From Nonomuraea sp. NBC_00507 (GTDB lineage: Bacteria; Actinomycetota; Actinomycetes; Streptosporangiales; Streptosporangiaceae), in contig NZ_CP107853.1 of NCBI RefSeq assembly GCF_036013525.1, forward strand, positions 4,774,001 through 4,838,000: DNA of 64,000 nt, given 5' to 3'. Shown here in pieces: positions 28,362 through 64,000 of the stretch; the stretch's first letter is position 1; every line of letters begins with the position of its first letter. The translations under genes were made by a program, and so were the position numbers. Below the pieces are notes generated by a model, which saw only the letters and a program-made list of their open reading frames with translations, did no database searches and was not told the DNA's origin.

Positions 28362-30076
28362 CGGCCCGCTCCCAGGTACGCCTCGCGCACAGCCGTGTCG
28401 GCCACGATGTCGTCCATGGGGCCGTGGGCGATGATCCCGCCGCCGTGCAGTACGACGACGTCGTCAGCGAGCTCCCTGACGATCTCCATGTCGTGCTCGA
28501 CGACGAGCATGGCGCAGCCGGTCCGTACGGTGACCTGTTTCAGCTCCTGCGTCAGCCGTCGGGCGTCCTGCCGTCCCATGCCCGCCGTCGGCTCGTCCAG
28601 CAGGACCAGCCTCGGGGCGCCTGCCAGCACCATGGCCAGTTCCAGGCGGCGGCGGTCGGCCAGGGGGAGGGTGCCCGCCTCGATCGCGTCGTTCGTCACC
28701 AGATCCTCGTACTCCTCGGGCAACTCGGCCAGGACCGGCGCCTCCATGCGCGCCAACCGGATGTTGTCGGCGGGGGACAGCGCCGTGATGACGCTGGGGA
28801 TCTGGAACATGCGGCCCAAGCCCATGCGTACCCGGCGGTGCACCGGTACGGCCGCCGCGTCCCGGCCGAAGATGCGCAGTGTGCCTGCGTCGGCCGCGAG
28901 CTGGCCGGCGACTATGGCCAGCAGCGTGCTCTTGCCCGCGCCGTTGGGCCCGATCAGGCAGACGCACCGGCCCGGCGGTACGACGAGGTCCACGCCGTCG
29001 AGAACTCGGACGGGGCCGAAGGACTTGGCGATCCCCTCCAGGCACAGCGCGGCGTCGCGACCGGCCGCGGGCGGCGTATCGGCCCGCTGGTCCAGGGAGA
29101 CCGCCGCGGGCGATGTCCTCCTGTCCCGGGAGGCGGCCGGGGGCAGTGCCACGCCGGGCCTGCCGCCCGACAGCCAGGAGCGGGCGAGCCCGGCCAGCCC
29201 GGCCGGCGCGACCTGGACGACCAGGACGAACAGGGCGGCGAGCCCCAAGACGTACCAGCCCAGCCAGGCGGTGCCCAGGATCTGCTGGCCGGTCGTGAGC
29301 GCCACCGCGCCGAGCAGCGGCCCCAGCGTCGACTCCCGGCCGCCCAGGGCGAGCCAGACCAGGACGCTGGTCGACAACCCCAGGCCGAACACGGGCGGCG
29401 ACACCAGTCCGGCAACGGGGGCGTACAAGGCACCGGCGATCGTCGACACGACCGCGCTCGCGGCGAAGGCGGCCGAACGGACGCGGACGGTGTCGATGCC
29501 CGACTGCGCGGCACGTTCCGGATTCCGGGCCGCCGCGGTCAGGCGCGCCCCGAACCGGCTGCGGACGATCAGCAACGTGCACAGCCCCACCACCACAACG
29601 ACCGCGACCAGTGTCCGGTAGTAGGTGGACACGATGTCCGAGGTGGACACCGGCAGGCCGTTGGTCCCGTTGGTGAGCGACGTGAGCGTGGTGGCCGCCT
29701 TCTGAAGGAGCAGGCTGACCCCGAGCGTCAGCAAGATCAGCGGCGCGTCGGGGACTCCGGAGGCCAGGCCGATGCGGACCACGACCAGCGCGATCATCGT
29801 TGCCGCCGCCAGCGCCACGGCCAGCGCGAGCATCAGGGGGATGCCGTGCCGCTCGCTCAGTGCCACCGCGTAGGCGCCGCAGCCGAAGAAGGCCGCGTGG
29901 CCGACGCTGAGGAGCCCGGCCCGTCCCCAGGCCAGATCCAGCCCGTAGGTGAACAGCCCGAAACACAGGCCGAGGGTCAAGGTGGCAACGGTGAAGGCGC
30001 TGAGGCCGAAAGGCGCCGCCGCCAGGGCCACGATCAGCAGCGCGGTGACGGCGCCTGCCATGCGAGGAGCGCTCAC
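28355..30076 (-). CDS. fused LivM permease-LivG ATPase
   Basis: 573 residues. The N-terminal part (about 1-310) is a LivM-like permease with DLAWGRAGLLSVGHAAFFG and many membrane helices. After a Pro/Ala/Arg-rich linker the C-terminal part is a LivG-like ATPase with Walker A LIGPNGAGKST and Walker B RLVLLDEPTAGMG, and His in LVVEHDMEIV. The signature motif, normally LSxGQ, reads LPLADRRRLE. I start at the GTG at 30076 (GTGA overlap with the binding protein's stop); a TTG two codons earlier is possible. LivM-LivG fusions occur in actinobacteria. Confidence 0.88.
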   Translation of the reverse strand: MSAPRMAGAVTALLIVALAAAPFGLSAFTVATLTLGLCFGLFTYGLDLAWGRAGLLSVGHAAFFGCGAYAVALSERHGIPLMLALAVALAAATMIALVVVRIGLASGVPDAPLILLTLGVSLLLQKAATTLTSLTNGTNGLPVSTSDIVSTYYRTLVAVVVVVGLCTLLIVRSRFGARLTAAARNPERAAQSGIDTVRVRSAAFAASAVVSTIAGALYAPVAGLVSPPVFGLGLSTSVLVWLALGGRESTLGPLLGAVALTTGQQILGTAWLGWYVLGLAALFVLVVQVAPAGLAGLARSWLSGGRPGVALPPAASRDRRTSPAAVSLDQRADTPPAAGRDAALCLEGIAKSFGPVRVLDGVDLVVPPGRCVCLIGPNGAGKSTLLAIVAGQLAADAGTLRIFGRDAAAVPVHRRVRMGLGRMFQIPSVITALSPADNIRLARMEAPVLAELPEEYEDLVTNDAIEAGTLPLADRRRLELAMVLAGAPRLVLLDEPTAGMGRQDARRLTQELKQVTVRTGCAMLVVEHDMEIVRELADDVVVLHGGGIIAHGPMDDIVADTAVREAYLGAGRC

Positions 30077-31281
30077 GGGCAACCCTGCTTGGCAACGGTG
30101 TCGGTGATCTGGCCGAGGTTACGCGTCACCGCGTAGGCGCCGCCCGGCCCGATGGTGGTCTCCAGCATGTCCGCCTGAAGGAGGTGGTTGGCCGGCTCGA
30201 AGTATGTGCCTTTGCCCAGCGGCGAGTCGAACCGCATCCGCCCGATCTCACTGTTGATCGCCTTGGGGTCGTTGCGGCCGGCCTTGCCCGCGGCGGCGAG
30301 GAAGAACTGGACGCCGAAGTAGGCGTTGCCCGCCACCTCGGGAATGGGCTGCGTCCACTTGTACGCGGCCCGGTAGTCGGTCACGAATTTCTTGCTCTCG
30401 GCGTGGTCGAGCCGATCGGTCCAGCGCACGATGTGGGTGCGCCCGTTCACCAGATCGCTGAGCGCCGGATAGTAGTCGGCGTCCAACGGCGCGCCGTCGT
30501 AGCCCAGCTCGCTGCGGAACAGCCCGAACTGCTGGCCTTGCTTGCTGAAGGCCACCGCGTCCGCGCCGACCACCATCGACAGCAGCACGTCCGGCTTGGC
30601 GTCCTTCAGCCTGGTGATGACCGACTGCCAGTCCGTCTGCCCGAGCGGGCTGTACTCCTCCGCGACGATCGTCCCGCCGGCCGATTTGGCGACCTCTTTG
30701 ACGATGCCGGCGTAGAAATGCGGATAGTTGTAGTCCGACCCGGCGATGGCGACCCGCTTGCCGTGCTTGCGAATCAGCTCGGGAACGCTCGGGAGGAGGA
30801 TCTGGCGGGTGGACTCGCCGAAGCCCCACGCGTAGCGGAAACAACGCTCGTTGTCGCCCAGGATGGCGGTGCCGAACGGCACCTCGGAGTCGTTCGCGAC
30901 CTTGCTCACCGCTTCCGCGGTGTCGCCGGTGATGGTGCCGAACAACATCGACACGCGGTCCTGCTGGATGAGCTTGCGGGCCAGCTGCGTGGAGGTCGCC
31001 GGGTCGCCCGCATCGTCGGTGACCACGTACTCGACCTTCTTGCCGTTGACCCCTCCGCTGTCGTTGACCTTCCGCACGCCCAGCTCGAAGCCGCGCTGGA
31101 GCGCCTTGCCCGTCTCGCTCACGGGGCCGGTGAGCGGGAGGACCACCCCGATCTTCAATGGCGCGCCGGCGTCGCCGGCGGCGCTGGACACGGCCGAGCC
31201 GCTGCACGCCGCCAGCGACAGCAGGGCCGCCGCGGCCGTCGTGGCTACGGCCGCGCGGGAGTAAGAATGCGACGGGACCAT
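30073..31281 (-). CDS. ABC transporter substrate-binding lipoprotein, type I (LivK/amide-binding class)
   Basis: 402 residues. Signal peptide with lipobox LAAC, then a type I periplasmic-binding fold in the usual order: LKIGVVLPLTGPVSETGKAL at the start, FGTITGDTAEAV, then GKRVAIAGSDYNYPHFYAG, and a C-lobe with GNAYFGVQFFLAAAGKAG. The QTDWQSVITRLKDAKPDVLL segment is typical of the AmiC/urea-binding branch, which fits the amidase in the operon. Its first 37 bp overlap the end of the LivH-like gene. It serves as an in-window reference for the permuted protein at 60560-61894. Confidence 0.9.
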   Translation of the reverse strand: MVPSHSYSRAAVATTAAAALLSLAACSGSAVSSAAGDAGAPLKIGVVLPLTGPVSETGKALQRGFELGVRKVNDSGGVNGKKVEYVVTDDAGDPATSTQLARKLIQQDRVSMLFGTITGDTAEAVSKVANDSEVPFGTAILGDNERCFRYAWGFGESTRQILLPSVPELIRKHGKRVAIAGSDYNYPHFYAGIVKEVAKSAGGTIVAEEYSPLGQTDWQSVITRLKDAKPDVLLSMVVGADAVAFSKQGQQFGLFRSELGYDGAPLDADYYPALSDLVNGRTHIVRWTDRLDHAESKKFVTDYRAAYKWTQPIPEVAGNAYFGVQFFLAAAGKAGRNDPKAINSEIGRMRFDSPLGKGTYFEPANHLLQADMLETTIGPGGAYAVTRNLGQITDTVAKQGCP

Positions 31282-54807: not shown

Positions 54808-55710
54808 TCAACTCCGGGTCAGATCCCGTGCGCTGCGGCTGATTCGGTCGAGCGCGACGCGGGCAGCAACGACGGCCGGGTGATGGTGGCTGCCAGTGCG
54901 GGTAGCGATGAGGACGCGCCGAGCGTTCGGCGGCGTCAGCTCGGTAAGTGTCACTGTAGGAGCGTGGACGCCCCAGGCGAGTTTGGGTAGGAATCCGACC
55001 GCCTGCCCGGCCTCGATCAAGCGCACATGGAAGGTGAGGTCGGTCGACTGGTAGCGAACGTGGGGTTCAAAGCCGGCCTGCCGACAGACAGCGCTGGCCC
55101 AGCGCCTGGCGGCATTGCCCTCGGGCTCCATGACCCAAGGCAGGTGTGCGAGAGCTGCGAGTTGCGGCGGCTCGCCGTCCGGTGGGGTGGCTAGAAGAAG
55201 AGGATCCTCGAGGAGAAGCTGTGTGTGCAGGCCGGACAGAGCCGACGGCGGCTCTCCCGGATACTCCTCGGCGATGACCAGGTCGAATTCGTGCGCGACA
55301 AGCGCCCGCAGCGGTGTGCGTTCGTTCTCCTGATGCACGAAGACGCGAAGCTGCGGATGCTCGCGCTGAAGCAGGTCTACGGCAGGTAGGACCAGAGTCT
55401 TAGCAGCAGTCTGAAAGGTTGCAATCCGCAGGTCACCCTCGAGCACGGTTTTAGCCCGCGCGATATCGGCCTCAGCCTGCTCGAGCCGGTCCAAGATCAC
55501 CTCGATATGCCCGACCAGCATCTCCGCCGCGGGCGTCAGACGGACCCGGCGTCCCATAGGTTCCAGGAGCGGGACGCCCACCTCGGCCTCCAGCTGCGAA
55601 AGCTGCGAAGAGATGGTCGAAGGACTGTACGAGAGGGCCGAAGCCACAGCTGCAAGGGTGCCGCGGTGCTTGAGTTCGCGCAGCAACCGAAGCCGGTGAA
55701 GGTCGTACAT
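54808..55710 (-). CDS. LysR-family transcriptional regulator
   Basis: 300 residues. N-terminal winged helix-turn-helix MYDLHRLRLLRELKHRGTL...LSYSPSTISSQLSQLEAEVG, then a two-lobed effector domain (VLEGDLRIATFQTAAKTLVL; FHVRLIEAGQAVGFLPKLAW). The start ATG at 55710 matches the family's start; upstream in-frame codons to 55791 look non-coding. It is divergent from the second Liv-type operon, 511 bp away, and is its probable regulator. Confidence 0.9.
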   Translation of the reverse strand: MYDLHRLRLLRELKHRGTLAAVASALSYSPSTISSQLSQLEAEVGVPLLEPMGRRVRLTPAAEMLVGHIEVILDRLEQAEADIARAKTVLEGDLRIATFQTAAKTLVLPAVDLLQREHPQLRVFVHQENERTPLRALVAHEFDLVIAEEYPGEPPSALSGLHTQLLLEDPLLLATPPDGEPPQLAALAHLPWVMEPEGNAARRWASAVCRQAGFEPHVRYQSTDLTFHVRLIEAGQAVGFLPKLAWGVHAPTVTLTELTPPNARRVLIATRTGSHHHPAVVAARVALDRISRSARDLTRS

Positions 55711-56221
55711 CACGCACCAATCGCCGCCCGTGACCACCGATTCGTCGCTTGAGGTGACCGATCGTACGCGAAAACATTTGCTGTCCCGCATCGGGGCACC
55801 GCGAGACTGCCTCGTCTTGCGGCATGTCCAACGAGACCGTGAGCCGTTGTCAACCTTCTTTTGAGCAGGTCAGGTGAAGGCCGCCGCGCCTCCACCGGTC
55901 GAATGGACGTCCACCGCACGTCCAACCGCCACGACCACCAACCCGGCGCCTACGCGGTCACAGCACTGGATCCGGTTTCTTCCCCGTTGATTGGTCGAAA
56001 ATTTCGATGAGTACGCATCGAAAACGACGACTGGACCGCGCAATGGGGGGCGCATAGCATTCCAGAACCGCGAGAATCGGTCACCCGAAATCTGCGGTAC
56101 GGCCGACGCAGCCCGCAGCAGAGTGGTATCGGTCGTCGGTCTCCCCACGCTGTCGTCGCTGCCTGCCGGCCCACCCGCCGCAGGCCGATCAGATATCCCG
56201 CCATGCAATTTCGGAGCGGCC
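55711..56221. other. long intergenic region, LysR gene to Liv operon
   Basis: 511 bp between divergent genes. Reading frames crossing it are not coding-like. It contains an AT-rich double palindrome at 55995-56023, described separately. GGAG stands about 6 nt before the livH-like ATG. I see no RNA gene. Confidence 0.5.
55995..56023. promoter_or_regulatory. overlapping palindromes, candidate LysR site
   Basis: TCGAAAATTTCGA (55995-56007) is a perfect odd palindrome. Overlapping it, TTTCGATG (56002-56009) and CATCGAAA (56016-56023) form a perfect 8-bp inverted repeat with a 6-nt spacer. It is AT-rich for this genome and lies between the LysR gene and the operon it probably controls. Confidence 0.5.
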
Positions 56222-57544
56222 ATGACACCACCCCGTGCACCTTGGCGCGTACGCCGCCATCCTGCTCGCCTGTCACTACTGCTGGGAGCGGTCATGCTCT
56301 CGATCGCCCTGCTCGGCGTCGTGGCAATGGGCGCTCCGACGTACGCGGCTGGTGATCGGACCGTGCAGGGAACGTTGCGCAACTCCGCCGACAACAACGC
56401 ACCGGTCGCTGGGGTGAAGATCAATGTCCAGTCCAGTACGGGTAAGACCTACACGGGCGTCAGCAACGACCAAGGCCGGTTCGCGATCACTGTGCCTGGC
56501 AGCGACTCGGGCACCCTGGCCGTCATCTTGGACACCAAGACGCTTCCCGATGCTGTGCGGATCCGCGACGGAGCGTCGAACACCTTGCGACCGACGGGCA
56601 CCTTGAGCACGATCACCGTCAACTTCCCCCTCGGTCCCGACACGCGTCAAGTGTCGACGGTGTGGGACCAGATCCCCCAACTGCTCTACAACGGCCTGCT
56701 GTTCGGCCTGGTGCTGTCATTGGGGGCTCTTGGCCTGTCCATGGTGTTCGGCACGACGGGACTGTCGAACTTCTCCCACGGCGAGCTGGTGACCTTCGGG
56801 GCATTCGCCACCTATCTCGGCAACCGGGTCGTAGGGCTGCCCATCGTCGTGGCGGTGGCGGTGGCGGTGGCGCTGTCGGCACTGTTCGGCTACCTGAACG
56901 AAAGGGGTTTGTGGAGACCACTCAGACGCCGCGGAACGGGACTTATCGCCATGATGATCATCTCGATCGGTCTGCAGTTCTTTCTCCGGAACTTCTACCA
57001 GTACTTCACAGGCGGCCGCGCCTTGACCTACCGCGAATACGTCACGCCCGCCGGCCGAGACGCCTTCGGATTGTTCACCTACACCATGCGAGACGTCGTC
57101 ATCATCTCCATCAGCGGGCTTGCGCTCGTCGCGGTCACTCTTGCTTTGCAGTACACCCGGATCGGTCGCGCCACGCGCGCGGTGTCGGACAATCCGGCCC
57201 TGGCCTCTGCGACGGGGATCAAGGTCGATCGTGTCATAGCCACGGTGTGGATCGTGGGCACCGCGCTGGCGGGACTGAGCGGGGCGTTCTTGGGATTCTC
57301 CCAATCGGTGTCCTACCAACTGGGAGCGCAGGTACTGCTGTTGATCTTCGCCGCTACCTGCGTCGGAGGTCTGGGATCAGTGTGGGGCGCGCTGATCGGC
57401 TCGATCATCATCGGGCTGTTCGTCGAGACCTCAACCTTGGTCATCCCATCGGAACTCAAGTTCGCAGGCGCGATGGTTCTGCTGGCACTGGTCCTGCTCG
57501 TCCGACCACAAGGCTTGCTCGGCCGCGCCGAGAGGATCGGGTGA
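56222..57544 (+). CDS. LivH-like permease with an N-terminal extracytoplasmic domain
   Basis: 440 residues, about 150 longer than normal LivH. The N-terminus is a basic start with a signal-anchor (LLLGAVMLSIALLGVVAMGA). A carboxypeptidase-regulatory-like beta domain follows (about residues 45-130; DRTVQGTLRNSADNNAPVAG, YTGVSNDQGRFAITVPG). The permease starts after about residue 140: FGLVLSLGALGLSMVFGTTG, GLSNFSHGELVTFGAF. The extra domain should face outside and could contact the binding protein or cell wall. First gene of the operon. Confidence 0.85.
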   Translation: MTPPRAPWRVRRHPARLSLLLGAVMLSIALLGVVAMGAPTYAAGDRTVQGTLRNSADNNAPVAGVKINVQSSTGKTYTGVSNDQGRFAITVPGSDSGTLAVILDTKTLPDAVRIRDGASNTLRPTGTLSTITVNFPLGPDTRQVSTVWDQIPQLLYNGLLFGLVLSLGALGLSMVFGTTGLSNFSHGELVTFGAFATYLGNRVVGLPIVVAVAVAVALSALFGYLNERGLWRPLRRRGTGLIAMMIISIGLQFFLRNFYQYFTGGRALTYREYVTPAGRDAFGLFTYTMRDVVIISISGLALVAVTLALQYTRIGRATRAVSDNPALASATGIKVDRVIATVWIVGTALAGLSGAFLGFSQSVSYQLGAQVLLLIFAATCVGGLGSVWGALIGSIIIGLFVETSTLVIPSELKFAGAMVLLALVLLVRPQGLLGRAERIG

Positions 57545-57548
57545 GGAC

Positions 57549-58530
57549 ATGGACATCATCGGCGCCGTCACGGGGGCACTGCACGACGGCTTCGGCTATG
57601 TGGCCGTCTCGTTCTGCTTGGCTGCGATCGGTTTGAACATTCAGTTCGGCTACGCCGGGCTGCTCAACTTCGGTCAGGCCGCCTTCTTGTCGGTAGGCGG
57701 TTACATCATGGGCGCGGCGATCGCCACAAAGCGGGATTCCCACCGTCCTCGCGATCCTGCTCGCGATCGCCTTCACCGTGGTGTTGGCGCTGATACTGGG
57801 CATTCCTACCCTGCGTCTTCGGGCGGATTACCTGGCGATCGTCACCATCGCGGCGGCAGAGATCCTACGACTTGTGTTCGGGACGTCGTTCCGGACGTAC
57901 TTTCACGGCAAGGACGGTGTGACCGGCTTTACCGCCGGGTTCCGAAGCCTCAACCCGCTGCCGAACTACGACGGCTTCTTCTTGACCTACAGCCGGGAGG
58001 AGCTGTGGACCGTCATAGTCGGCTGGGGCCTGGTCATCATGATCAGTCTGTTCACCTGGGCCCTGATGCGATCACCGTGGGGAAGGGTTCTCCGGGGCAT
58101 CCGTGAAGACGAGGATGCAATGCGGTCTCTGGGCAAGAACGTCTACGGCTACAAGATCCAGGCCCTCATCCTCGGTGGAGTGGTCGGATGCGCCGGAGGT
58201 TTCGTGGGCGCGTTCGGGGCCGCTTCGGTCCAGGCCGACACGTTCAACCTGGACTTCACCTTCATCGCCTTGACCATGCTCATCCTCGGTGGCGCCGCTC
58301 GGATCCTTGGCCCGATCGTCGGCGCGGTGATGTTCTGGGCGATCCTGTCGTTCCTCGGATCGGTCTTGACGCAGTTGGCGGGCTACCCGGTCGTGGCGCA
58401 CTTCATGAACGCCGACCAAGCATCAATCATCCGGCTGATGTTGGTCGGATTGGTGCTGATGCTGCTGATGATCTTCCGGCCGCAAGGCATCTTCGGTGAT
58501 CGAAGGGAGATCGCGCTCGATGCCCACTGA
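57549..58530 (+). pseudogene. livM-like permease with a frameshift
   Basis: The reading frame from the ATG at 57549 gives a normal LivM start (LNIQFGYAGLLNFGQAAFLS) up to about base 57731, after which it turns into a non-coding-like Arg/His-rich sequence. The correct continuation (GIPTVLAILLAIAFTVVLAL and on to the LivM C-terminus at 58530) is in the +1 frame. Reading ACAAGCGGG instead of ACAAAGCGGG at 57726-57735 would restore one frame, so one extra base, probably an A, explains it. It may be a sequencing error, a recent mutation or a programmed shift. The downstream genes are intact. Confidence 0.8.
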
Positions 58531-59557
58531 CAACCTCCCCACTGACCACCTCTCCTCGGGCACCGCACCCAAGGACGTCCCAGCTGCCGGTGATACGTCC
58601 CAGCCACGGGTTCCCGCCCCCGGCCCCGGCCCCGGGGAGAACAAGTCGATGCGCGAGTGCCGGACTGCTTTGCAGTCGGTGCCGCATGAGCCTGGTGCCG
58701 CCAAACCCGACCCCGTTGTGGTCGTGAACGGAATCCGCCGCACCTTCGGCGGCCTCACCGCGGTCGACGTGGAACATCTCGAAATCCAACGTGGGGTCAT
58801 CACCGCCTTGATCGGACCCAACGGTGCAGGCAAGACCACGTTCTTCAACCTGCTCACCGGCTTCGATCAACCCGATGCCGGTTCCTGGTCCTTCGACGGG
58901 ACACCGCTCGAAGGCAAGGCAGCCTACAAAGTGGCACGCCTCGGCATGGTCCGGACCTTCCAGCTGACCAGAGTGCTCTCGAAACTGACAGTACTGGAGA
59001 ACATACGGATGGGCGCCACAGGTCAGCGTGGCGAACGCTTGTGGGCCGCCGCGCTCCCCGCCCTGTGGCGGGCGCAGGAACGAGACATCACCGACCGGGC
59101 CCGAGACCTGCTCAAGCGGTTCAAACTCGACGCCAAGGAGGAAGATTTCGCCGGGTCCCTGTCAGGCGGCCAGAGAAAGCTGCTCGAGATGGCGCGAGCG
59201 CTCATGGTCGAACCGAAGCTGGTCATGCTCGACGAACCCATGGCCGGCGTCAACCCAGCGCTGAAGCAGTCCCTGCTCGGGCATGTGAAGTCGCTTCGGG
59301 ATCAGGGAATGAGCGTCCTGTTCGTCGAACACGACATGGACATGGTGCGAGAGATCTCCGACTGGGTGGTCGTCATGTCCCAGGGCAAGGTGATCGCCGA
59401 GGGACCCCCCACATCCATCATGTCGGACGAACGTGTCATCGATGCCTACCTCGGAGCTCGCCACGACACCGACATCAGCGAGCTCGAACACGTGATCCAG
59501 GTCGAGCACGCGCACGACCACGCCGAGCAGCTGGTCGACCGGGAGGTCCCGAGATGA
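58520..59557 (+). CDS. branched-chain amino acid-type ABC transporter ATP-binding protein (LivG-like)
   Basis: 345 residues. A non-conserved Pro/Gly-rich N-terminal extension of about 70 residues precedes the ATPase: Walker A LIGPNGAGKTT, signature SLSGGQRKLLEMARALM, Walker B LVMLDEPMAGVNP, switch His in VEHDMDMV. The C-terminus has an extra His/Glu-rich tail (EHAHDHAEQ). ATG at 58520 follows AAGGGAG; it overlaps the livM end by 11 bp. Confidence 0.9.
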   Translation: MPTDNLPTDHLSSGTAPKDVPAAGDTSQPRVPAPGPGPGENKSMRECRTALQSVPHEPGAAKPDPVVVVNGIRRTFGGLTAVDVEHLEIQRGVITALIGPNGAGKTTFFNLLTGFDQPDAGSWSFDGTPLEGKAAYKVARLGMVRTFQLTRVLSKLTVLENIRMGATGQRGERLWAAALPALWRAQERDITDRARDLLKRFKLDAKEEDFAGSLSGGQRKLLEMARALMVEPKLVMLDEPMAGVNPALKQSLLGHVKSLRDQGMSVLFVEHDMDMVREISDWVVVMSQGKVIAEGPPTSIMSDERVIDAYLGARHDTDISELEHVIQVEHAHDHAEQLVDREVPR

Positions 59558-60438
59558 CTTCTGCCCATCAGGGCCCATCGGACTCTCAGGTCACCGATCA
59601 GGGCGAGATCGTGGCTGAAACCGATCCCAACGCCCCAAGGAGCGACCAGGCAGCGCAGACAAGGCATCTGCAGGCGGCCGAGGGTGCAGCCCTTCGCGCC
59701 GACAATCTGATCGCCGGGTATCTCCCCGGAGTCAACATTTTGAATGGCGCCGATCTGTACTGCCAACCGGGCGAGTTGGTCGGCATCATCGGACCCAATG
59801 GCGCCGGCAAGTCGACACTGCTCAAAGCACTCTTCGGGCTGGTCAAGATCACCGCCGGGACGGTTCGCCTGCGGGGCGAAGAGATCACGAACCAGCGCGC
59901 CGACGCACTGGTATCCCAAGGGATCGGCTTCGTACCGCAAACCAACAACATTTTCCCCTCGCTCACCATCGAGGAAAACCTGCGGATGGGGTGCTATCAG
60001 TCCCCCAAGAAGTTCGCCCCCCGGTTTGCGTTCGTGACCGACCTGTTCCCTGCGCTGGGCCGGCGCCGCAAGCAGCGGGCCGGACAATTGTCAGGCGGTG
60101 AGCGGCAGATGGTGGCTATGAGCCGGGCTCTGATGATGGAACCCTCCGTGTTGTTGCTCGATGAACCCTCAGCGGGCCTGTCCCCGGCGATGCAGGACGA
60201 GGTGTTCGTGCAGACCCGAGCCATCAACCGCACCGGTGTATCGGTCGTCATGGTCGAGCAGAACGCGCGCCGCTGCCTCCAGATCTGCGACCGCGGGTAC
60301 GTCCTCGACCAAGGACGCAACGCCTACACCGGGTCCGGCCAGGCGCTGGCCCGTGACCCCAGGGTGATCGAGCTGTATCTCGGCACCTTGTCCAATGCCG
60401 CCCAGGCAGACAGCACACCTGCCGGCCAGCGGAACTAG
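59554..60438 (+). CDS. branched-chain amino acid-type ABC transporter ATP-binding protein (LivF-like)
   Basis: 294 residues. An N-terminal extension of about 48 residues is followed by the ATPase: Walker A IIGPNGAGKSTLL, signature LSGGERQMVAMSRALM, Walker B VLLLDEPSAGLSP. The His switch position reads MVEQNARRCL, as is usual in LivF. ATGA overlap with the LivG gene; GGGAGG precedes the start. It completes the ATPase pair of this importer. Confidence 0.9.
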   Translation: MTSAHQGPSDSQVTDQGEIVAETDPNAPRSDQAAQTRHLQAAEGAALRADNLIAGYLPGVNILNGADLYCQPGELVGIIGPNGAGKSTLLKALFGLVKITAGTVRLRGEEITNQRADALVSQGIGFVPQTNNIFPSLTIEENLRMGCYQSPKKFAPRFAFVTDLFPALGRRRKQRAGQLSGGERQMVAMSRALMMEPSVLLLDEPSAGLSPAMQDEVFVQTRAINRTGVSVVMVEQNARRCLQICDRGYVLDQGRNAYTGSGQALARDPRVIELYLGTLSNAAQADSTPAGQRN

Positions 60439-60559
60439 GACTACGACCGCACCTGTTCGCCGGTCGAATCCTCCCATCGCGTCCGCTCCTGACCTCCGCC
60501 ACGACACAGCCGTGCACCGCACCAATAGCGCAACAGTCCTCACCACACTTGGAGGCCCC

Positions 60560-61894
60560 ATGCCGCTCCCCAGACGCATCACCTGTATCGCCGTTTTGGC
60601 CTTCGCCGCGTTGGCAACCGCCGCTTGCGGTTCTAACAGCAGCCCCACCGCAGCCGGCAGCGAGCCGCCGGCCACGGCGGGCACCCAGCCGCCGGCCAAG
60701 GCGGGCACCCAGCTCTACTTCGTAGACGGCAACACCGCCGACTACTCCGGTGATTTCGAGCCGGGCACTCTCAACGGTGTGCGCGCCACCCTGCCCGGCG
60801 GCAAGATCGGCGACGAGTTCCGGCAGCGGATCCTCAAGATCAACAGCAAGGTGAAGGACTTCACCTACGCTCCGGAGGCCTACGACGCCACGATCCTCTC
60901 AGCCCTGGCTGCGATCGCCGCAAAGAACGACTCCGGCAAGGCGATCGCCGAGAAGGAGATCGGCATTACCAGGGATGGGACAAAGTGCACCGGCTTCAAG
61001 CAGTGCGCCGACCTACTCGCCGACGGAACGGACATCGACTACGACGGCGCCTCTGGCCCGATCGAGATGAACTCGACAGGAAGCCCGTCCGCGGCGACCG
61101 TCGGCATCTACCAATTCGGGCAGGACAACAACTACAAGAATGTCGGCTACGTCAACGGCACCACTCCGGACCAGGCCAACATCCGAGCCGACCAGAAGGT
61201 CAGCGGCCCAATCCCCAAGGGGGACGGCACCCTTACGTTCGGCACCCTGCTCCCTGCCACAGGGGACAGCTCCTTCCTCGGCGCCCCGCAGTTCGCCGGC
61301 GTGGACCTGGCCATTGACGAAATCAACAAGGCCGGGGGTGTGCTGGGCAAGGATGTGAAGCAGTTGAAGGGCGACTCCGGTGACGGGTCGCCGAACATTG
61401 CGCCATCCGAGACCGACAAACTGCTCCGCGGTGGTGCCGACGTCATCATCGGTGCCGCTTCCTCGTCGGTGTCGCTGTCGGTCATCGACAAGATCTCCGG
61501 GGCTGGCGTCGTCCAGATATCGGCCGGAAACACCTCGACCGCATTCGACACCTACCCCGACCATGGCATGTACTTCCGTACGGCCCCTTCCGACGTCCTG
61601 CAGGGGCAGGTGATGGCCCAGACCATCAGCGAGGACGGTCACCGCAACATCGCAATCCTCGCCCGGCAGGACGCCTACGGAGAGGCATTGGCGAAGAACG
61701 TCCGCTCCTTCTACGAGGAATCCGGCGGCAAAGTCGTCTCCTATGCCCTTTACGACGCGAACGCAGCCAACTACACGGCCGAGGTGGAGAAGGTGAAGGC
61801 CCAAGACCCGGACGCCATCGTGCTGATCTCGTTCGACGAGAGCAAGAAGATCGTCCCGGAACTCATCAAAGCCGGCATCGGCCAGAACGGCTGA
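60560..61894 (+). CDS. substrate-binding lipoprotein, type I, with circularly permuted domain order
   Basis: 444 residues. Signal peptide with lipobox TAAC, then a linker with a doubled 8-residue unit (about residues 36-51). The part normally found at the C-terminus comes first (about 51-200: QLYFVDGNTADYSGDFEPGT, YAPEAYDATILSALAAIAAK, IDYDGASGPIEM, VGIYQFGQDNNYKN). After a 20-residue linker the normal N-terminal part follows (about 223-444: GTLTFGTLLPATGDSSFLG, FRTAPSDVLQGQVM, PDAIVLISFDESKKIVPELI) and the protein ends at GIGQNG. The end joins naturally to the start (GQNG to TQLYFVDGN). It belongs to the Liv-type importer encoded upstream. Confidence 0.85.
   Translation: MPLPRRITCIAVLAFAALATAACGSNSSPTAAGSEPPATAGTQPPAKAGTQLYFVDGNTADYSGDFEPGTLNGVRATLPGGKIGDEFRQRILKINSKVKDFTYAPEAYDATILSALAAIAAKNDSGKAIAEKEIGITRDGTKCTGFKQCADLLADGTDIDYDGASGPIEMNSTGSPSAATVGIYQFGQDNNYKNVGYVNGTTPDQANIRADQKVSGPIPKGDGTLTFGTLLPATGDSSFLGAPQFAGVDLAIDEINKAGGVLGKDVKQLKGDSGDGSPNIAPSETDKLLRGGADVIIGAASSSVSLSVIDKISGAGVVQISAGNTSTAFDTYPDHGMYFRTAPSDVLQGQVMAQTISEDGHRNIAILARQDAYGEALAKNVRSFYEESGGKVVSYALYDANAANYTAEVEKVKAQDPDAIVLISFDESKKIVPELIKAGIGQNG
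60665..60712 (+). repeat. 24-bp tandem repeat (two units) in the signal-to-domain linker
   Basis: Two adjacent 24-bp units (60665-60688 and 60689-60712) differ at one base and encode PPATAGTQ and PPAKAGTQ. They lie exactly at the point where the permuted domain is joined to the signal peptide. Confidence 0.85.
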
Positions 61895-61908
61895 GCCCGT
61901 ACCTAGCC

Positions 61909-61949
61909 GGTGGTCGTGGCTCCGGATCCGCCCCGCAGCCACGACCACC
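61909..61949. terminator. stem-loop terminator of the second Liv operon
   Basis: GGTGGTCGTGGCT (61909-61921) and AGCCACGACCACC (61937-61949) form a perfect 13-bp stem with a 15-nt loop, 15 bp after the binding-protein stop. Confidence 0.8.
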
Positions 61950-61988
61950 CAGACTGCCGTGTCGCCCGTGGAGTGGAGCAGTTTTCGC

Positions 61989-63221
61989 ATGACCACCAGA
62001 CCGCCAAAAGCCAGTCCTACCGCCACCGCAGAGTACGGCGCCGACCCCGACTTTGACACGGTGTACGACCGCGCCACTTTCGGGTCAGCCAAATGGGCCA
62101 ACCAATGGGACGAATTTTCACCGCGTGTCCGGGGCGAGGATCTGCTGTCGCTATGGACGGCCGACATGGACTTCCGGGCGCCGACGACCGTCATCGACCG
62201 GCTGCGCGCCGCTGCGGACCACGGTATCTACGGCTACACCCTGCGAGACCCGGAACACTTCCAGATCGTGCAGAACTGGTTCACCGTCAGGCACGGCTGG
62301 ACACCACCGGTGGAAACGCTCCTCCCGGCCCCTGCGATCATGTCCTCGGTCGCAGCAATCTTGCGCACCTTCACCGCCCCTGGAGATGGGGTGATCGTCC
62401 AATCACCGGTCTACTCGCCGAACTTCGAGGCCATTACCGGTAACCACCGGCGGCTGCTCGTGAACCGGCTCCGGCTCATCGACAACCGCTACGAGTTCGA
62501 CCTCGACAACCTGGCCGAGCTGGCCGCATCCGGCGCGAAGGTGCTACTTCTCTGCAACCCCCACAATCCCTCGGGCCGGAGCTGGACGGCCGACGAGCTG
62601 CTCGCCGTGAACGACATCTGTGCGCGCTACGACCTTCTGGTGATTTCTGATGAGATCCACTGCGACATCCGGCTGAACGGCCGGCCCCACGTGGTCTATG
62701 CCTCGATCAGCAGCGACGCCGCCCGCCGAGCATTCATCTGCACTGCCCCCACCAAGACCTTCAACCTTGCGGGCCTGCCAACGGCCACACTCTCGGTTGC
62801 CGATCCATACCTGCGCTCGGAACTGCTGAACGCCATGCGGGCATCGTTCATGATCAACGCGCACTACTTCGGTCGTCTGGCCTTGGAGACTGCCTACACT
62901 ACGGGTGGTCCGTGGCTCGACCGGCTGACCGAATATCTCAAGGGCAACGTGGCCTTCGTGCACGAGTTCGTCCAAGAGCGGCTGCCCGAGATCACGCCGA
63001 TGCCGCCGGACGCGTCGTTTCTGGTCTGGCTGGAGGCTCGTGAGCTTGACGCTCGTGTGGGCGGGCTGCACCAGTTCCTTGTCGACCGTGCGGCTGTCAA
63101 TCTCTACGACGGCCGGGTCTACGGCCCCGGAGGAGAGGGGTGCGTCCGACTGAACGTCGGCTGCCCCCGGAAGGTGCTGACTGAGGCGCTCGAACGCATC
63201 GATCATGCGCTCTCACGGTAG
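61989..63221 (+). CDS. PLP-dependent C-S lyase / aminotransferase, PatB/MalY family
   Basis: 410 residues, fold type I. Family landmarks: ADMDFRAPTTVIDRL near the N-terminus, YGYTLRDPEHFQIVQNW, LLCNPHNPSGRSWTADEL, the cofactor Asp in VISDEIHCDI and the Schiff-base Lys in TAPTKTFNLAGLPTA. PatB/MalY enzymes cleave cystathionine and other cysteine S-conjugates to pyruvate, ammonia and a thiol. The ATG at 61989 is chosen over the GTG at 61959. It is convergent with a gamma-glutamyltransferase gene. Confidence 0.9.
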   Translation: MTTRPPKASPTATAEYGADPDFDTVYDRATFGSAKWANQWDEFSPRVRGEDLLSLWTADMDFRAPTTVIDRLRAAADHGIYGYTLRDPEHFQIVQNWFTVRHGWTPPVETLLPAPAIMSSVAAILRTFTAPGDGVIVQSPVYSPNFEAITGNHRRLLVNRLRLIDNRYEFDLDNLAELAASGAKVLLLCNPHNPSGRSWTADELLAVNDICARYDLLVISDEIHCDIRLNGRPHVVYASISSDAARRAFICTAPTKTFNLAGLPTATLSVADPYLRSELLNAMRASFMINAHYFGRLALETAYTTGGPWLDRLTEYLKGNVAFVHEFVQERLPEITPMPPDASFLVWLEARELDARVGGLHQFLVDRAAVNLYDGRVYGPGGEGCVRLNVGCPRKVLTEALERIDHALSR

Positions 63222-63260
63222 CGCTCCTCGGGGCACTCACTGACCCTGTCCCGCGTCACC

Positions 63261-64000
63261 TCAGGACATGTCGGCCTGGGGATCTTCCGGCATCAGCGAA
63301 ACCAGGGCGGAGGCGCCATCGCAGCGAGGATCGCTCCCCGCTGAGGTGGCACCCCCGACGACTTGTGCGTGGCCGACCCATTCTGATGCCGGCGGCAGCG
63401 GGACGATCGGCGCGCCGGTCGCGGTCAGAGCTGCGATGGTACTGGGGGAGAGATCCGTCTCCAGGCTGATCGTGTCCTCCGGCTGGCCCGCCTCCATACC
63501 GCCGACGACCCAGCGGGGTGCGGCGACCGCGTCGGCGGGTTGTTCCCCGTCGAGCAGCCGTAGCAGCACTTGGGTGAGGATCTGCGGTTGGGCCTTGCCT
63601 CCCATCGTGCCCATCGACCAGGCCAGCCGTTCTTCCTGGGTGACCATGACCGGCATCAACGTGTGTGCCGGACGCTTGCCCGGCGCGATGACGTTGGGCG
63701 AGGCGGCGTCGAGGGAGAAGAACGCCCCGCGATTGTGCATCACCATGCCGGTCGAGGGTTCGAGCAGCCCCGCGCCGAAGCTGTGGAAGAGGCTCTGGAT
63801 CAGCGAGACCGCGTACCCTTCGCTGTCCGCGGTCACGACCGCGACCGTGTCGCCACTCGCCCTGCCGGTGATGGCCGGCCCGGCCGCTTCGTGGGAGGGG
63901 CCCAGCAGCAGGGTGTCCACGTCGATCTGCGCGAACCGGGGATCGGCCAGATGGCGGGTCCTGTCGGCGATGCCTCCGTGGAAGATCGCGGCCAGTAGTC
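63261..64000 (-). CDS. ggt: gamma-glutamyltransferase, C-terminal part (5' end outside window)
   Basis: About 246 codons are visible, entering as LLAAIFHGGIADRTRHLADP and ending after SLMPEDPQADMS. The small-subunit start is in SGDTVAVVTADSEGYAVSL, whose Thr is the likely autoprocessing nucleophile (family form GxTT/GDT). NRGAFFSLDAASPNVIAPGK and LMPVMV...GTMGGKAQPQ are strong family motifs. The enzyme hydrolyses or transfers the gamma-glutamyl group of glutathione-like compounds. With the C-S lyase gene next to it, degradation of gamma-glutamyl-cysteine conjugates is likely. Confidence 0.9.
   Translation of the reverse strand, partial: LLAAIFHGGIADRTRHLADPRFAQIDVDTLLLGPSHEAAGPAITGRASGDTVAVVTADSEGYAVSLIQSLFHSFGAGLLEPSTGMVMHNRGAFFSLDAASPNVIAPGKRPAHTLMPVMVTQEERLAWSMGTMGGKAQPQILTQVLLRLLDGEQPADAVAAPRWVVGGMEAGQPEDTISLETDLSPSTIAALTATGAPIVPLPPASEWVGHAQVVGGATSAGSDPRCDGASALVSLMPEDPQADMS

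Follow-up and report, generated by a model that had tools for sequence, protein, structure and literature searches.

The window analysed here is the whole stretch of 64,000 nucleotides from Nonomuraea sp. NBC_00507 (contig NZ_CP107853.1, positions 4,774,001 to 4,838,000), and towards its end, behind livH, livM, livG and livF, lies a gene whose product is very probably a natural circular permutant of a LivK/HAAT (Peripla_BP_6) lipoprotein serving the neighbouring LivHMGF importer. Its open reading frame runs from an ATG at 60560 to a stop codon ending at 61894, and the gene and protein are made up as follows.

60551..60555, plus strand: GGAGG, the likely ribosome-binding site (read from the sequence)
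60560..61894, plus strand: permuted LivK/HAAT-type substrate-binding lipoprotein of 444 amino acids (open reading frame, segment searches, Pfam, alignment)
60560..60628, plus strand: signal peptide with lipobox end, residues 1-23 (translation, alignment of permuted proteins)
60629..60703, plus strand: low-complexity tether, residues 24-48 (translation; predicted local distance difference test, pLDDT, below 50 up to residue 47)
60704..61147, plus strand: C-terminal segment of a normal LivK, now first, residues 49-196, equivalent to leucine-binding protein 219-346
61148..61225, plus strand: junction linking the old C and N termini, residues 197-222 (seam comparison, model, junction comparison)
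61226..61891, plus strand: N-terminal segment of a normal LivK, now last, residues 223-444, equivalent to leucine-binding protein 1-220 (segment search, Pfam)

The signal peptide (residues 1-23) ends in a lipobox, and its Cys23 is invariant in the aligned permuted proteins (62/62). Behind the tether the chain starts with TQLYFVDGN, and from residue 223 it reads GTLTFGTLLPATGD...GIGQNG up to the stop. The junction between the two segments consists of the old C-terminal tail, an intervening stretch and, at its end, the old mature N-terminal motif KGDGTL.

The swapped order of the segments is evident from separate searches with residues 49-204 (C segment) and 219-444 (N segment), which match the same unpermuted proteins, there in the opposite order. 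An unpermuted Nocardioides protein (L046) is 51% identical to the C segment and 62% to the N segment, and the second binding protein of the window's own genome (L021 in G000) 49% and 55%, respectively. Positions 2-198 of Pfam Peripla_BP_6 map to residues 225-424, and the two family models PF13458 (109 bits, cut-off 31.7) and PF01094 (91.6 bits, cut-off 25.4) align the N segment only, while the NCBIfam LivK model stays far under its cut-off of 477 with both the permuted protein (74.6) and the unpermuted L047 (81.6). The preliminary description of this DNA had proposed swapped halves and a C-terminal GQNG flowing directly into TQLYFVDGN, and both proposals stand. Indeed, the seam GIGQNG+TQLYF is as long as the uninterrupted GIGPKDVQLYF in L047 and as the equivalent stretch in L046, hence the cut removed no residues. 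The protein at 30073-31281, put forward there as the comparator in standard order, is an ordinary binding protein; it is encoded on the minus strand and is a distant paralogue (23% identity over the N segment), and a better yardstick is found in the same genome at G000:C1:9439757-9440908, in normal order and 48-55% identical.

The predicted structure agrees with this arrangement. The model is confident (pLDDT 84, predicted template modelling score, pTM, 0.83) and forms one domain, in which residues 49-196 match residues 219-346 of the leucine-binding protein and residues 223-442 match residues 1-220; the two aligned ranges are complementary and meet at residues 219-220. Together with the segment-wise structure matches, the model supports a type I two-lobed fold, and the predicted outcome is one complete two-lobed domain rather than two segments failing to form one. 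By the domain boundaries, the 219-220 seam lies in lobe II. The leucine- and leucine/isoleucine/valine-binding proteins (2lbp, 2liv) share the fold of both segments and the family, but have the normal order and only 15-24% identity over the aligned parts.

A survey of related genomes, as suggested in the preliminary description, recovered the same order in Nonomuraea, Streptomyces, Nocardioides/Marmoricola and the families f26 and f36. Every one of the 147 proteins P0002-P0148 (that of the window plus 146 relatives, among the matches listed) is permuted, while all 120 proteins P0149-P0268, collected with an unpermuted query, have the normal order. The genome surveys overlap, and their counts are not additive. 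Among 59 genomes near that of the window, its own included, four carry a full-length permuted match, namely its own, G007 (96%), G026 (55%) and G014 (54%), all four belonging to the 36 Nonomuraea genomes searched. A class-wide sample gave a permuted match in 8 of 296 genomes, family f28 (that of G184) in 13 of 197, f26 in 4 of 4 and f36 in 8 of 78, the latter all from one genus, with one match truncated at the end of a contig. Family f28 is read as Nocardioidaceae because identical proteins occur in Nocardioides/Marmoricola. The named permuted loci comprise L031, L032 and L036 of Nonomuraea, L033-L035 of Streptomyces, and L037-L045 and L101 of Nocardioides/Marmoricola. The genes of G026 (L110) and G014 (L111), 52-60% identical to the segments of the window protein and each lying upstream of its own livHMGF, represent a second, divergent lineage, and the genus Nonomuraea thus holds two permuted lineages, both inside the clade here called A (Nocardioides, Nonomuraea, Streptomyces and kin). 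Clade F comprises the permuted proteins of families f26 and f36.

Rows were assigned to the permuted group by their segment order, ahead of the tree, and in the trees the permuted rows fall among unpermuted ones. In quick trees of a first set (32 permuted and 48 normal rows) the permuted proteins form one clade, for which a single change is needed, with a sister group of 23 normal proteins found in Nocardioides or by a Nocardioides query, the result being the same for joined and separate halves. In a careful tree of a larger set (39 permuted and 40 normal rows), to which f26, f36 and further f28 rows had been added, the permuted rows are split and two changes are needed. Clade A (29 rows, support 93/84) groups with 23 normal proteins from Nocardioides and f28 with a support of 95/100; clade F (10 rows, 98/81) falls outside this grouping. 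The sister group of clade A includes the unpermuted LivK-type proteins L046-L052, L122, L142 and L144 (Nocardioides, f28), which keep the normal order and are 58-66% identical over the N segment and 47-64% over the C segment. Placing all permuted proteins in one clade is rejected by the approximately unbiased (AU) test with the joined data (p=0.000186), with the N half alone (p=0.00148) and with the joined data once 12 rows that were long or outlying had been removed (p=0.00021). In the tree of this reduced set two changes are again needed, and the support is 96/88 for clade A and 99/97 for clade F.

The junctions, of which 139 of 156 were parsed, and 6 of 11 in clade F, point in the same direction. 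Within clade A they resemble each other with a mean z of 7.9 (45 pairs of 10 chosen rows), whereas between clades A and F the mean z is 1.5 and the maximum 4.3 (60 pairs), and a clade F junction that hardly resembles that of clade A speaks for two origins. Several observations weigh against this. The cut in clade F is the cut of clade A within a residue or two, junction lengths are alike (30-33 in clade A, 31-38 in clade F) and the tail GIGPN is common to clade F and some clade A rows, e.g. L131-L135, all of which speaks for one origin; furthermore, the C half alone does not reject a single clade (p=0.146), and on the clade F side the junction evidence is limited to the six parsed. The alternative is a single old permutation, after which the Nocardioides lineage either went back to the normal order or recombined with normal genes. 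It would account for the shared cut and tail and for the first, smaller tree, and the C half does not reject it. It is a serious though less probable explanation, as it is rejected by the joined and N-half AU tests, and a return to the exact original order would require a second permutation. On balance, clades A and F were probably permuted independently at the same cut. Slightly better than an even chance is given to the fuller statement, that the same LivK-type protein was permuted at least twice independently in the same lobe II loop, in the slot facing livF and with no residues lost at the cut.

The permutation would most likely have arisen by tandem duplication, or by fusion of tandem copies lying next to each other, after which the outer parts were lost and the signal peptide was retained. 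No intermediate of such a process was seen among the listed proteins P0002-P0148. In G007 (L112, G007:C16:98000-116000) three unpermuted binding-protein genes lie in tandem beside one livHMGF set, like the tandem arrays of normal binding-protein genes in other Nonomuraea genomes. Such arrays are a plausible source for permutation via duplication and loss.

The preliminary description knew of no described native permuted LivK-type protein, which holds for LivK in the literature searched, where no permuted LivK/HAAT protein was found, but not for type I binding proteins at large. In 2016, TpMglB-2 (Tp0684) of Treponema pallidum was reported as a type I binding protein that is naturally permuted, and a class 'Type Ic / Cluster Bc' was proposed with it (PMC4990184). 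Permutation of type I binding proteins as a phenomenon is therefore not new. Like the window protein, TpMglB-2 is a naturally permuted type I Venus-flytrap binding lipoprotein and partners a probable ATP-binding cassette (ABC) importer, and the predicted type I fold of the window protein in circularly permuted order agrees with the definition used there (PMC4990184). The two differ in family, TpMglB-2 being of the sugar (MglB) type and the window protein of the LivK/HAAT type. They also differ in the cut. In TpMglB-2 only the N lobe's first three strands (EcMglB residues 3-65) were moved to the end and the C lobe is canonical (PMC4990184), whereas in the window protein the first 220 residues were moved and the seam lies at leucine-binding protein 219-220. 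The moved part of TpMglB-2 is 13% identical to its MglB counterpart (PMC4990184), unlike the segments of the window protein, which are 47-66% identical to those of unpermuted sisters. Among the 60 of 69 PDB sequences listed for the permuted protein P0002, no entry is named MglB. What is new here is the permuted family (LivK/HAAT) and the cut site, and probably the two origins. Among other cases, the structures of glycine-betaine binding proteins are interrelated by circular permutation (PMC2395249). These proteins represent another binding-protein class (type II) and an unrelated family. Engineered permuted halves are treated in PMC9815098.

The protein most likely works as an ordinary Venus-flytrap tethered via the other lobe. 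The putative ligand would be held in the usual cleft, with the lobes closing as usual, while the lipid-linked N terminus would now sit on lobe II, just ahead of the strand QLYFVDGN, and not on lobe I, and junction residues 197-222 would form an extra, fourth inter-lobe crossing. In TpMglB-2 a fourth crossing is likewise described, with glucose binding, a conformational change and data consistent with a monomer (PMC4990184). The short junction (30-33 residues as parsed in clade A), which has to cross between the lobes, would also fit a domain-swapped dimer, in which a complete domain forms only from segments of two different chains. This is improbable, given that the monomer is predicted with confidence (pTM 0.83) and that TpMglB-2, described with an extra crossing, is reported as monomeric (PMC4990184).

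The assignment of the protein to a Liv-type importer is borne out by its neighbours, as the gene sits with livHMGF in a cluster flanked by a divergent LysR gene and a gene for a PatB-family C-S lyase.

54808..55791, minus strand: LysR-type regulator, divergent from the operon (profile match)
55991..57544, plus strand: open reading frame of LivH permease, Pfam BPD_transp_2 at residues 233-500 (profile match)
57549..58530, plus strand: LivM permease, split over two frames in the assembly (profile match, frame comparison)
58496..59557, plus strand: LivG ATPase (profile match)
59041..60438, plus strand: open reading frame of LivF ATPase, ABC domain in the last half (profile match)
61959..63221, plus strand: PatB-family C-S lyase (profile match, TIGR04350, 384 bits against a cut-off of 340)
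63261..63998, minus strand: C-terminal part of a gamma-glutamyltranspeptidase, truncated at the end of the window (profile match)

The order LysR-livHMGF-binding protein-lyase is retained in L033-L036. In Nocardioides (L037-L044 and L101) the permuted gene faces livF-livG-livM-livH, and in other Nocardioides (L046-L052) its unpermuted kin occupies the same slot facing livF, beside homologous transporter genes. The livM gene is frameshifted in the window assembly, while each of the four relatives L033-L036 has one open frame of 377 codons; the split may be genuine or may stem from an error in base calling. This frameshift is the one point in favour of a decaying gene, or of a protein no longer used for uptake (e.g. 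a soluble sink or sensor), both very improbable given that the binding protein sits beside livHMGF across genera, that conserved columns are kept and that the ratio of nonsynonymous to synonymous substitutions (dN/dS) is well below 1. Among 72 columns nearly fixed in 35 normal proteins, 57 are kept in at least 90% of the 29 clade A rows and 61 in at least 90% of the 10 clade F rows, in both halves. Nei-Gojobori estimates of dN/dS between the window's permuted gene and its relatives are 0.016/0.071 (L031), 0.019/0.144 (L033), 0.035/0.153 (L035) and 0.215/0.682 (L037), and the selection on the gene is purifying. An assembly or annotation artefact, the misassembly allowed for in the preliminary description, has a negligible chance and is refuted by the same order in many independently assembled genomes of several genera, retained down to 45-49% identity.

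Natural circular permutations are seldom found while unpermuted sisters of ~50-60% identity still occupy the corresponding operon position in related species. In this case the event can be assigned to a place on a tree, cut and junction can be read residue by residue, and natural pairs allow a comparison of folding, lobe closure and tethering. If the permutation did occur twice at the same cut, it would be a natural replicate experiment on the topologies tolerated by the Venus-flytrap domain, the lobe II loop would be a hot spot or a permissive one, and lipid-anchored Gram-positive importers would tolerate a lipid anchor shifted from lobe I to lobe II, or profit from it. The family models tried align just one segment of the permuted protein. 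Binding-protein engineering gains a natural permutation site.

The proteins of the LysR-livHMGF-binding protein-lyase cluster (54808-63221) are 89-98% identical to those of Streptomyces L033-L035, which suggests recent horizontal transfer. At its N terminus LivH has a long extension, with a carboxypeptidase-regulatory-like match that stays below threshold (25.8 bits against a cut-off of 32.3). The genes for the C-S lyase and the gamma-glutamyltranspeptidase are adjacent downstream (61959-63998), and both also lie beside the importer in L031 and L036. Such a pair could break down cysteine or glutathione S-conjugates. As to the putative cargo, the adjacent C-S lyase (Nonomuraea/Streptomyces loci) and gamma-glutamyltranspeptidase (window, L031, L036) weakly hint at a cysteine S-conjugate or an amino acid of similar kind, which is a guess.
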